Shown piece by piece: positions 7,831 to 60,505 of a stretch of DNA of 64,000 bases. Source of the DNA: Aliiroseovarius sp. Z3 (lineage in GTDB: Bacteria > Pseudomonadota > Alphaproteobacteria > Rhodobacterales > Rhodobacteraceae); NCBI RefSeq assembly GCF_029105185.1, contig NZ_JAFMZK010000006.1:62001-126000 (forward strand). Direction: 5' to 3'. Made by a program: the position numbers and the translations under genes. The notes below the pieces were generated by a model. It was not told the DNA's origin and searched no databases. It worked only from the letters and a program-made list of their open reading frames with translations. The first letter of the stretch is position 1; every line of letters begins with the position of its first letter.

Positions 7831-7847
7831 GGCTCACGATGTGAGCC
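7831..7847. repeat. Short perfect inverted repeat after ileS
   Basis: GGCTCAC-GAT-GTGAGCC, 7-bp perfect arms with a 3-base loop, 10 bases after the ileS stop and just before the dispersed hairpin element. No T run follows, so it is at best part of a compound 3' end structure. Confidence 0.55.
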
Positions 7848-7850
7848 TGA

Positions 7851-7920
7851 GGGGCGTTGCCCCTTCGCGTGAAACCCGGGCGGGTTTCACGCTCCCCCAG
7901 GATATTTCACGCCAGAAGAA
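7851..7920 (+). repeat. Dispersed hairpin element, copy 1 (module A)
   Basis: Intergenic element between ileS and ogt. It contains a box GGGGC-GTT-GCCCC (7851-7863), then a perfect 11-bp hairpin (arms 7867-7877 and 7882-7892, reading GCGTGAAACCC), a C run, and the tail AGGATATTTCACGCCAGAAGAA. The same order recurs at 60373, and on the minus strand at 32475-32419 and 38040-37984. Probably a REP-like element or a transcript 3'-end structure; no terminator U run follows. Confidence 0.75.
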
Positions 7921-19105: not shown

Positions 19106-19125
19106 GAGGGGGCCGTGGCCCCCTC
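19106..19125 (-). terminator. Hairpin downstream of the transaldolase-like gene
   Basis: GAGGGGGCC-GT-GGCCCCCTC, perfect 9-bp arms, 27 bp past the stop of the minus-strand aldolase gene and followed on that strand by TTTCTGTT. A plausible intrinsic terminator. Confidence 0.75.
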
Positions 19126-32360: not shown

Positions 32361-32475
32361 GATTTCATGCCTTCGGCGAGGATATTTTCAGCCAGAAGAA
32401 GCAAGGAAATATCTGGCGTTTCTTCTGGCGCTAAATATCCCGGGGTGAGCGGCCACGGCCGCGAGGGGCAGCGCC
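32361..32475. repeat. Dispersed hairpin element, copy 2 (modules B and A face to face)
   Basis: Between the convergent stops of xseA and rluB, running into the end of rluB. Plus-strand module B (32361-32400) reads GATTTCATGCC, then GGATATTTTCAGCCAGAAGAA. Minus-strand module A (32475-32419) reads GGGGC-GCT-GCCCC, a hairpin GCGGCC/GGCCGC (32449-32462), then CCCGGGATATTTAGCGCCAGAAGAA. The two tails point toward each other. Confidence 0.75.
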
Positions 32476-33378
32476 CCTTTTGCCCGGTTTCCCCCCGCGC
32501 TTCGCAGGCGGCTTGGCCAGTGCGCCGTGATTGCCCTTGGCCGGACCTGAGCGTTTTCGCGCAGGCGTTTTCGCGGGGGCTTCCATCCCAAGCTGGTCCC
32601 GCACGACCCGTTGGCGGATCTCCTCGACCTCGCCCGGTTTCAACTCGCCCAATTGGAAAGGACCATAGCTGACGCGCAGCAGGCGGTTCACGGACAGTCC
32701 GACCGCTTCCATAGCGCGGCGAATCTCGCGGTTCTTGCCCTCGCGCAGGCTGATGGTCAGCCACGCATTCGCGCCCTGTTGCCGGTCTAGTGAAACGCTC
32801 ATCGGTTGGAAGCGGTCGCCGTCGACGGTGATACCTTTGCGCACGGGTGCGAGTGTTTCTTCGCTGGGGCGACCGTTCACGCGAACACGGTATTTGCGTG
32901 TCCACCCGGTCGACGGCAGTTCCAGCTTACGCTTCACCTCGCCGTCATTGGTCAGAAGCAGCAGGCCCTCGGAATTCAGGTCAAGTCGCCCAACGCTCAT
33001 CACGCGCGGCATGTCGTCGGGCAGTGACGCGAACACCGTGTCGCGGCCTTTTTCGTCCCGTTCGGTCGTCACAAGGCCAACAGGCTTGTAATACAGCCAC
33101 ATCCGCGGCGGTTCTGGGTCAGATAGCGGCATGTCGTCAAACAGGATGACATCCTTGGCTGTGACGTTCAGGGCAGGGCTGTCGATCACAGCGCCGTTGA
33201 CCTTGACGCGCCCGGCTTCGATCAGCCGTTCGGCTTCGCGTCGGCTTGCGATGCCAGCGCGGGCCAGCACTTTGGCGATGCGATCACCCTTCGCCGGATC
33301 GGGCGTCGCGGCGGCCGGTTTTCTGGGCGCAGGTTTGCGGGCGGATTTTGGAACGGGGGGGCGCTTTTTGTCTGTCAT
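32431..33378 (-). CDS. rluB: Pseudouridine synthase RluB-like (23S rRNA)
   Basis: 315 residues from ATG 33378. An S4 RNA-binding domain (RIAKVLARAGIASRREAERLIEAGR) is followed by the pseudouridine synthase core with YYKPVGLVTT and the catalytic Asp in GRLDLNSEGLLLLTNDG. A Lys/Arg/Pro-rich N-terminal tail and a basic C-terminal tail (GKPGKRGAAPRGRGR-like) are common in this family in alphaproteobacteria. Modifies 23S rRNA near position 2605 by family. The end of the gene overlaps the dispersed element copy 2. Confidence 0.92.
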   Translation of the reverse strand: MTDKKRPPVPKSARKPAPRKPAAATPDPAKGDRIAKVLARAGIASRREAERLIEAGRVKVNGAVIDSPALNVTAKDVILFDDMPLSDPEPPRMWLYYKPVGLVTTERDEKGRDTVFASLPDDMPRVMSVGRLDLNSEGLLLLTNDGEVKRKLELPSTGWTRKYRVRVNGRPSEETLAPVRKGITVDGDRFQPMSVSLDRQQGANAWLTISLREGKNREIRRAMEAVGLSVNRLLRVSYGPFQLGELKPGEVEEIRQRVVRDQLGMEAPAKTPARKRSGPAKGNHGALAKPPAKRGGKPGKRGAAPRGRGRSPRDI

Positions 33379-37317: not shown

Positions 37318-37986
37318 GTGCGGATCACGTCCCGCCCATCCCCGAATTTCGGCCCGCGCCGGGATGGGTTGGTGCCGTCTTTGATCGTCCTGCACTATAC
37401 CGCGATGGCGGACCCGGACGAGGCGCTGGAACGTCTGTGCGCCGCTGAGCACGAGGTGTCCGCGCACTATCTGATCCATCGCGACGGACGTCTGTTTCAG
37501 ATGGTTCAGGAAGACATGCGCGCGTGGCATGCGGGTGCAGGGACTTGGCGGGGGATGGATGATATCAACTCCCGTTCAATCGGTATCGAAATGGACAATG
37601 ACGGTGCCTCACCCTTTTCGGAGCCGCAGATGTCGACGCTTGAAACCGTGTTGCCCGAGATCATGCACCGATGGAACATCGCACCCGAGGGCATCATTGG
37701 CCACAGCGACATGGCTCCGGGGCGCAAAGCAGATCCCGGCCCACGCTTTGACTGGGCGCGCCTTGCGCGACAGGGGCTTGTTGCACGCTCGGGCACGTCT
37801 GAACCGATTGAAGACCCCGCAATCGAAACCTTCCGCAGTTGCGCAGCCAGGCTGGGCTATCCGACCGATATCGACGATGCCACGCTGCTCACCGCTGTGC
37901 GCCTGCGTCACCGCCCATGGGGCGAAGGCCCTTTGTCACAAGAGGATTTTGCGGCCCTTCCCAACGTTTCGCATTTTCTTGTCTGA
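37318..37986 (+). CDS. N-acetylmuramoyl-L-alanine amidase (AmpD-like)
   Basis: 222 residues beginning with GTG directly after the lipoprotein stop. Zinc ligands of the amidase_2 fold are seen: VLHYTA (His near 25), GHSDMAPGRK (His near 127) and the D of DPGPRF. SAHYLIHRDG and RSIGIEMDN are also typical. No signal peptide is visible, so it is probably a cytoplasmic AmpD-type enzyme cleaving anhydro-muropeptides in cell-wall recycling. Its stop merges with the dispersed element copy 3. Confidence 0.92.
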   Translation: MRITSRPSPNFGPRRDGLVPSLIVLHYTAMADPDEALERLCAAEHEVSAHYLIHRDGRLFQMVQEDMRAWHAGAGTWRGMDDINSRSIGIEMDNDGASPFSEPQMSTLETVLPEIMHRWNIAPEGIIGHSDMAPGRKADPGPRFDWARLARQGLVARSGTSEPIEDPAIETFRSCAARLGYPTDIDDATLLTAVRLRHRPWGEGPLSQEDFAALPNVSHFLV

Positions 37987-38040
37987 AATATCCCGGGGGA
38001 GCATGAGTTTCCCCGGAAACTCATGCGGGGGCAGCGCCCC
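37984..38040 (-). repeat. Dispersed hairpin element, copy 3 (module A, minus strand)
   Basis: Starts at the TGA of the amidase gene and lies about 50 bp ahead of rnpB. On the minus strand it reads GGGGC-GCT-GCCCC (38040-38028), a perfect 12-bp hairpin with arms GCATGAGTTTCC (38026-38001), then CCCCCGGGATATTTCA. The hairpin arms differ from copies 1 and 4 but pair fully. The GCCAGAAGAA end is missing. Confidence 0.75.
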
Positions 38041-38091: not shown

Positions 38092-38482
38092 GCGCGGATG
38101 GCTGGATGACCGCGGGTGACTGTTGGGGCGTGCCCCTGCGTGACGCGAGGAAAGTCCGGACTCCACAAGGCAACGGTGCCGGGTAACGCCCGGCCGGGGC
38201 AACCCGAGGGAAAGCGCCACAGAGATCAGACAGCCTGCGCTTGCGCGGGTCACGGTGAAACGGTGGGGTAAGAGCCCACCGCGCACTTGGCAACAAGGGC
38301 GGCACGGCAAGCCCCACCGGGAGCAATGCCAAATAGGGATCGCGCGGGGGCAACCCCAGGGGCGTCTTGCCCCGAGCAGGTCCGGGTTGGCAGCTTGAGG
38401 TGCCTGGTAACAGGCATCCTAGAGGAATGGTCATCCAGGGTGGCAACACCCGGACAGAATCCGGCTTACAGGCCATCCGCGC
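38092..38482 (+). ncRNA. rnpB: RNase P RNA, bacterial type A
   Basis: About 390 nt. Both hallmark conserved regions are present: GAGGAAAGTCCGGACTCC (about 38147) near the 5' end and ACAGAATCCGGCTTA near the 3' end. The ends pair to close the molecule: GCGCGGATGGC at 38092-38102 with GGCCATCCGCGC at 38471-38482. Catalyses 5' maturation of tRNA precursors. Exact ends are inferred from this pairing. Confidence 0.95.
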
Positions 38483-38512
38483 ATAATTTCACACCGACGG
38501 GGCGCCGCTTTG

Positions 38513-60372: not shown

Positions 60373-60505
60373 GGGGCGTTGCCCCTTCGCGTGAAATCCT
60401 GACGGGTTTCACGCTACCCCAGGATATTTCGGGCCAGAAGAAGCCCGGGAAAGGCGTGCTGTTTCTTCTGGCTGCAAATATCCCCGCCGGAGGCATGAAA
60501 TCTGC
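60373..60505. repeat. Dispersed hairpin element, copy 4 (modules A and B face to face)
   Basis: Fills the gap between the convergent panC and M20 peptidase genes. Plus-strand module A (60373-60442): GGGGC-GTT-GCCCC, a hairpin (arms 60389-60399 and 60404-60414, one T/G pair), then AGGATATTTCGGGCCAGAAGAA. Minus-strand module B (60505-60461) reads GCAGATTTCATGCCTCCGGC, then GGGGATATTTGCAGCCAGAAGAA. Module A is nearly identical to copy 1; module B matches copy 2. Confidence 0.8.

Follow-up and report, generated by a model that had tools for sequence, protein, structure and literature searches.

Dispersed repeats with the potential to fold into intrastrand triplexes have been described in E. coli and other bacteria under the names PIT, BoxC and TM_ECO (Holder et al., 2015; PMC4666352). 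In the available text of that paper, BoxC has 9-nt stems and the consensus CCCTCNCCC N3-6 GGGNGAGGG N3 GGGNGAGGG and belongs to class II (pyrimidine, purine, reverse Hoogsteen), and it stands as the best studied bacterial triplex motif with no known function, at gene ends or elsewhere; triplex motifs in bacteria are listed there by rules applied to one sequence at a time, and its main text nowhere contains the words Rhodobacter, Roseo or Paracoccus. The element described here resembles PIT/BoxC, as far as that text goes, in being a dispersed GC-rich repeat with three runs on one strand that obey triplex rules. It follows the triplex rule by which PIT/BoxC are recognized, and shows neither their consensus, nor their 9-nt stems, nor the class II arrangement, its heads running purine-pyrimidine-pyrimidine with arms of 4-8 nt. 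A literature search over titles and abstract openings, with most subscription journals outside its range, found no description of this element.

The window, by which we mean the whole 64,000-nt stretch that was analysed, contains four copies with the standard or "A" head, and copies with a second, "B" head face copies 2 and 4 (Table 1). All four A copies listed in an earlier note on this sequence are present, but copy 2 starts at 32477 rather than at 32475, the note having cut off two G of its box. Each second hairpin pairs with its own opposite arm, as had been claimed, with one T.G in copy 4; the tail described as common to the four is shared only as regards GGATATTT, because copy 3 has a second tail type, ACAAGAAAAT. 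RNA folding predicted the box hairpin and hairpin 2 in copies 1, 3 and 4, while copy 2, folded from the shortened coordinates, kept hairpin 2 and lost the box hairpin; the z-scores of copies 1 to 4 were -2.7, -1.0, -2.2 and -3.0. An Rfam scan of the window returned no family for the element, RNase P alone reaching the gathering threshold, and around copy 1 there was one sub-threshold match outside the element (sR32, 18.1 bits versus 40). A further hairpin, GGCTCAC..GTGAGCC, often lies directly 5' of the box, at 7831-7847 in the window and at several other sites in the genome. At 19106-19125 (-), GAGGGGGCCACGGCCCCCTC is followed by TTTCTGTT, a classical terminator-like hairpin with no third run before GGATATTT.

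Table 1. Parts of the element in the window (R, the purine that precedes GGATATTT)
Feature	Position	Strand	Remark
Copy 1, hairpin 1: purine arm GGGGC, loop GTT, complement GCCCC	7851..7863	+	
Copy 1, hairpin 2 (insert)	7867..7892	+	read from sequence, RNA fold
Copy 1, third run CCCCC and R = A	7894..7899	+	R matches loop T
Copy 1, GGATATTT	7900..7907	+	
Copy 1, species-specific tail GCCAGAAGAA	7911..7920	+	
Copy 2, hairpin 1	32465..32477	-	loop GCT
Copy 2, remainder: hairpin 2 (32462-32449), third run, R = G (32441), GGATATTT (32440-32433), tail	32420..32462	-	
B-head copy: GCCTTCGGCGA, GGATATTT, NNN, GCCAGAAGAA	32369..32400	+	facing copy 2
Copy 3, hairpin 1	38028..38040	-	loop GCT
Copy 3, remainder: hairpin 2 (38026-38001), third run CCCCC, R = G (37994), GGATATTT (37993-37986), ACAAGAAAAT	37973..38026	-	
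Copy 4, hairpin 1	60373..60385	+	loop GTT; behind panC
Copy 4, remainder: hairpin 2 (60389-60414), third run CCCC, R = A (60421), GGATATTT, tail	60389..60442	+	
B-head copy: GCCTCCGGCGG, GGATATTT, tail	60463..60494	-	facing copy 4; behind M20 peptidase gene

The genome-wide search that the earlier note had called for yielded further copies: in the source genome (3.52 Mb, 11 contigs) the exact string GGATATTT-NNN-GCCAGAAGAA occurs 40 times and its reversed control pattern not once, and inexact tails add one site with one mismatch and nine with two, seven of these nine being GGATATTT-NNN-ACAAGAAAAA. Fifty sites in this genome bearing either tail type were read individually. Tails are the same throughout one genome and differ from species to species, while heads are diverse; the tail is mostly GCCAGAAGAA in the source genome, G009 and G013, GCAAGAGGAA in G001 and G019, and of other kinds in other genera, the variants visible in the same-genus comparison being restricted by the search pattern used. 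Two tails within one genome were observed in G192 and in the source genome. Ectopic gene conversion or a shared reader are possible causes of the uniformity.

An A head runs from a purine arm, mostly followed by C, through a short loop and mostly a G to the complementary arm; then come a linker or insert, a pyrimidine run, a purine R and GGATATTT, and the core downstream motif after R is GG(A/G)TATTT. In the short forms (n = 152), most of which were fetched with a pattern containing CTCCCC, the hairpin extends below the purine arm by at least 1 bp in 148 cases and by at least 2 bp in 106; in 105 the linker consists of one base, G or A. Three A heads have a broken arm (L109, L113, L115). For comparison within the genus, sites were defined by their tail (142 sites in five same-genus genomes); two sites have neither head (L089, L104), and 27 of the 142 have the B head, GCCTYCGGCGR, one of them with GCA in place of GCG. 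The B heads retain a pyrimidine-purine pair at all 27 sites (19 C-G, 8 T-A), and at one orthologous site a B head takes the place of an A head (L068 versus L090 and L116); we propose that B heads substitute a short hairpin for the triplex.

Given an asymmetric purine arm, the third run can either be parallel to it (the Hoogsteen rule) or be its reverse complement (the hairpin rule), and where the order is readable it is parallel, as in GAGGGG..CCCCTC..CTCCCC and GAGGGA..TCCCTC..CTCCCT. An order-neutral pattern, in which GAGG was the one fixed part of the arm and R had to be preceded by four pyrimidines of any kind, found matches in 54 of 198 family genomes. Among the 150 matches listed, from 36 genomes that each represent a different genus, 115 (in 30 genomes) are parallel, none is antiparallel and 35 are neither, arms longer than the pattern being scored only within the matched stretch; the last group, among the matches listed, is mostly long-insert copies with a third run of just CCCC. 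Twenty chosen places, picked from the order-neutral and T-last matches, were read with full arms: GGAGGG, GGAGGGG, GGGGAGG and GAGAGG are followed by the parallel runs CCTCCC, CCTCCCC, CCCCTCC and CTCTCC, GGGAGGGG by CCCTCCCC, GAGAGGGG by CTCTCCCC, and GAGGGA and GAGA by CTCCCT and CTCT, the rule being broken at the last base in 3 of the 20 (L345-L347). The sequences GGGGAGGG and GGAGAGGGG add to this set of arms and third runs. By pattern search T is next to last in the third run in none of the 198 family genomes, and is last at eight places in four genomes (control 3), five of them parallel GAGA/CTCT in one genome and three breaking the parallel rule at that base.

The count over all loci (132 parallel, 0 antiparallel and 7 neither of 139) is not an independent test, and was not used because the fetching of loci mostly imposed the order: 116 of the 132 were fetched with a pattern containing CTCCCC, 10 were picked places and 4 came from a parallel-form BLAST query, so that only L031 and L084 are free of order-biased fetching. 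Shuffling the arms in this set gave a mean of 110 and a maximum of 116, which says little owing to the same bias. At the 11 informative sites outside the query, 2 are parallel, none antiparallel and 9 neither. In the source genome the order can be read at few copies (L031), because the third run is almost always plain C, and among asymmetric long-insert sites (n = 92) the parallel order is seen at 3 and neither order at 89, with ACCCC at the end of most runs. A switch in which the third run pairs antiparallel with the purine arm was considered and ruled out, with 0 of 150 among the matches listed. Judged by the sequences, the mirror relation is what would suit an intrastrand triplex, and not an alternative hairpin or a protein that reads direct or inverted repeats; we regard the three-strand relation itself as highly probable.

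A second constraint ties the hairpin 1 loop to the base before the downstream motif. The loop base second from the 3' end and the R before GG are T-A or C-G in 277 of the 282 testable sites among 301 over all loci; four of the five exceptions look like wrong parses and one, L055, is real. At 116 of these sites the fetching pattern fixed a pyrimidine and a purine, and not which, and here 111 pairs are C-G, 5 are T-A and none is mixed. In the tail-defined set 111 heads were parsed, with 53 T-A and 48 C-G; the remaining ten comprise one B head, three heads that were parsed wrongly and fit on inspection, and six with long loops, which match over two to three loop bases (GCA/TGC in three, GTG/CAC in one, GA/TC in two). 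The order-neutral matches listed obey the rule in 144 of 147, with 3 more unparsed. Among the five genomes we identified 81 reciprocal orthologous pairs, some of them weak; 44 have standard A heads on both sides, with 34 unchanged, 10 double changes and no single change. Restricting these to well-supported pairs (flank score >100, n = 40), which sets aside four double-change pairs at scores of 62 or less, leaves 34 unchanged, 6 changed at both loop base and R, and none changed at one; the six double changes fall at four loci (L005/L132, L006/L135/L146, L025/L158 and L067/L129/L156). A parallel third run together with loop base-R covariation is the signature that would be predicted of an intrastrand triplex. 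Selection on structure, as proposed in the earlier note, is supported, but the stronger evidence for it is this pair and the three-strand relation, neither of which the note had seen.

The earlier proposal had been founded on hairpin 2, said to change its sequence and yet stay paired. Counting bears out the covariation in the stem, but hairpin 2 proves to be an optional insert and not part of the core. Among long-insert copies (n = 122, loci fetched), a perfect stem of 5 bp or more is present in 95, whereas shuffling leaves one in about 6% of inserts; distinct sequences number 111, and of the 40 well-supported orthologous pairs in which both heads are of the standard A kind, 35 have inserts that differ. 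Mismatches are few in both hairpins, with 4 A.C and 15 others besides a single G.T in the 568 pairs of hairpin 2, and 2 G.T, 1 A.C and 1 other in hairpin 1 over 320 elements. The scarcity of G.T in both carries no mark of selection on a sense RNA, in a strand comparison (G.U versus A.C) that draws on very few non-Watson-Crick pairs. Hairpin 2 is the weaker evidence for structure selection because its G.T count is lower than RNA-kept stems lead one to expect, and its perfect stems could also have arisen through template switching or cassette replacement. At some orthologous sites hairpin 2 is swapped whole for a different hairpin, as if by cassette exchange (L003/L134, L032/L140, L068/L147).

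Gene calls came from a codon model, for which six Pfam-supported genes of the window served as training set, and placed 127 of the 142 tail-defined sites, 14 on short stretches and 1 at an edge being left out. Convergent genes flank 55 of these; 38 are codirectional sense, 25 codirectional antisense, 6 divergent and 3 incomplete. A sense gene lies upstream in 95 of the 127, with a median of 57 nt from its stop codon to GGATATTT (one at 907), and where the next gene is on the opposite strand its stop falls 3-15 nt past the tail in 35 of 81. The 25 antisense sites, antisense to both neighbours and with copy 3 among their number, keep the head rules unchanged, and re-examination of the group revealed few missed sense genes (one at L136, by eye). 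tRNA genes, sought in 28 loci, were found once. Copy 1 is flanked in the window by ileS and an ogt-like gene, and copy 3, in antisense orientation, by an amidase gene and rnpB. Copy 2 overlaps the end of a pseudouridine synthase gene, the stop codon of which (32431, -) falls inside GGATATTTAG; the end of that protein is therefore encoded by the element. RNase P RNA (RF00010) occupies 38094-38484 (+), and some 54 nt separate its 5' end from copy 3, which precedes it on the opposite strand. By annotation, the element is found between gap and an aldolase gene in Cereibacter (L312) and between iolC and iolD in Paracoccus (L315); it also lies between genes for a glutamine synthetase family protein and an aldehyde dehydrogenase in Ruegeria sp. 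B32 (L316). In Leisingera it separates a TetR gene from the convergent speB (L314), and in Ruegeria TM1040 it is antisense between hpaE and hpaD (L311). Some copies thus sit within same-strand gene runs (gap-aldolase-rubisco, iolC-iolD). With copies throughout the genome and covariation counted in the stems, the earlier description of a dispersed gene 3'-end element under structural constraint is supported.

The strict A form with GGATATTT is present in 103 of 198 family genomes (one per genus), the controls giving 0; counts made with GGATATTT are lower bounds because some plasmid copies carry GGGTATTT. At the level of the class, the GG(A/G)TATTT form was found in 2 of 142 genomes, the source genome and one of another family, the latter with a single match near a contig start. 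Among the matches listed are Tritonibacter, Roseovarius, Ruegeria, Salipiger, Phaeobacter and Jannaschia; records labelled Flavobacteriia (marked unverified) and Enemella are presumably misassignments. Plasmids of Cereibacter, Paracoccus and Leisingera carry the element, those of Paracoccus and Leisingera with GGGTATTT, and 30 stretches in IMG/VR have it. Outside the family, a GAGGGG/CTCCCC copy is found on a plasmid of Rhodovastum atsumiense (Acetobacteraceae; L313, 1501-1534), between divergent genes and far from gene ends. Our best guess is that the element is vertically inherited, in tens of copies, and marks gene 3' ends in Rhodobacteraceae.

The copies, the three-strand order where readable, the loop base-R covariation, the position and the spread in the family are direct observations, from which we infer that the fold forms, that it would do so in RNA, and that it may serve in termination or protection. 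The purine arm and its complement would form hairpin 1, and a short linker, or hairpin 2 in the longer copies, would turn the strand back so that the pyrimidine run could lie in the major groove, parallel to the purine arm, in C.G-C and U.A-U triples, with R paired to the loop base. GG(A/G)TATTT would follow directly, at the place of the U tract of an intrinsic terminator, and docking of the third strand in the nascent transcript might pull on the RNA over the weak AUAUUU hybrid, whereby the transcript would be ended or trimmed and the 3' end of the upstream mRNA protected. A transcript-end signal is suggested by TATTT adjoining the structure, by the sites behind stop codons and by the exchange of A and B heads at an orthologous locus, and we consider such a role in RNA possible, if somewhat short of probable. 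Runs of C+.G-C triples require protonation and are weak at neutral pH; since the triples would mostly be of this kind, the strength of the triplex would depend on pH. Full termination is unlikely at some copies because these lie inside same-strand gene runs. Against a transcript-end role stand the antisense copies, which keep the head rules with no explanation from a function at mRNA 3' ends, the species-specific tail, which has no part in the model, the near absence of G.U pairs from hairpin 2, and the related BoxC/PIT, which lack terminator activity according to work cited in the available text of PMC4666352. The complete picture, a bacterial RNA triple helix at many gene ends, kept by three-strand coevolution, in which docking ends transcription or protects mRNA and a factor reads the tail, seems to us rather unlikely as a whole.

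Those same antisense copies, together with the scarcity of G.U pairs and a mirror symmetry that serves both strands, speak for the main rival, in which the triplex acts as DNA: the complementary strand (G-run, purine arm, pyrimidine arm) would fold, while transcription or replication leaves it single-stranded, into a purine-motif triplex (G.G-C, A.A-T), and could form a block or boundary between gene ends. This too is possible, though we give it less credence than a role in RNA, for a sense gene lies upstream of most placed sites, the T-rich GGATATTT is on one side only, and DMS footprinting in vivo gave no support to a stable BoxC triplex, as far as the available text of PMC4666352 goes. An ordinary Rho-independent or bidirectional terminator, consisting of hairpin 1 followed by T on either strand with the third run incidental, would fit the 3'-end location and the many convergent sites, and in some copies the complementary strand does have T after hairpin 1 (of the sites with a box, those with three or more A among the four bases that precede it number 6 of 26 in the codirectional sense group, 12 of 40 in the convergent and 8 of 19 in the antisense group). 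A terminator scan of three window parts (GC hairpin, at least 5 T in 8 within 2 nt) recovered none of the four copies, however, and the parallel third run and the loop base-R covariation would go unexplained, which makes this account improbable.

Two further readings are more doubtful still. A REP/BIME-like mobile or transposase-related palindrome would be dispersed, intergenic and 3' of genes, with some facing pairs, as is this element, and the REP-like character suggested earlier is true of position only; the link to a transposase fails, as a Y1_Tnp search gave no match in the source genome and was positive in 5 of 14 control genomes. With no Y1/RAYT transposase, many sites orthologous between species, and heads that are diverse on a uniform tail, the REP reading was rejected as very improbable. 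It is equally hard to credit that the tail acts as an address across the genome, for DNA uptake or otherwise, with the structure a by-product. Uptake-sequence dialects are indeed uniform within species and differ between species, as the tails do, but genomes carry far more uptake sequences than this tail has copies: the 10-mer GCCAGAAGAA occurs 61 times in the source genome (control 9), 40 times inside elements, and 20 of the 21 other occurrences were read and resemble background. This reading was likewise rejected.

That three strands vary together across about 30 genera, and that loop base and R change together at orthologous sites, is evolutionary evidence for selection on the three-stranded relation itself. 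The element offers a compact, family-wide system, found in laboratory species such as Cereibacter sphaeroides, for testing triplex formation and its role at gene ends by mutations that each preserve or disrupt a single strand.

Among known systems, the SAM-II, SAM-V and guanidine III riboswitches, H-type pseudoknots, are alike in combining a triple helix with loop pairing in bacterial RNA, in the accounts available to us. These riboswitches are ligand sensors in 5' leaders, whereas the third strand of this element is 3' of a hairpin and follows the purine-arm order of that same hairpin. REP/BIME palindromes lie between convergent or codirectional genes in inverted pairs, and the position between genes and the inverted pairs recur here; this element differs in sequence, in having no REP transposase and in occupying orthologous sites. 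The MALAT1-type helix is rich in U.A-U and built with a 3' A tract. As a protective RNA triple helix at a 3' terminus (available text of PMC11411715) it is the proposed analogue, eukaryotic where this element is bacterial and composed of C/U.G/A-C/U. Unlike BoxC, this element belongs to class III (purine, pyrimidine, Hoogsteen), its complement to class I, and it has a loop base-R pair, an optional hairpin, GG(A/G)TATTT, species-specific tails, a 3'-end location and another lineage. On the available text of PMC4666352, PIT/BoxC is the closest known kind, and the element is a new relative of it with evolutionary support for the triplex rule.
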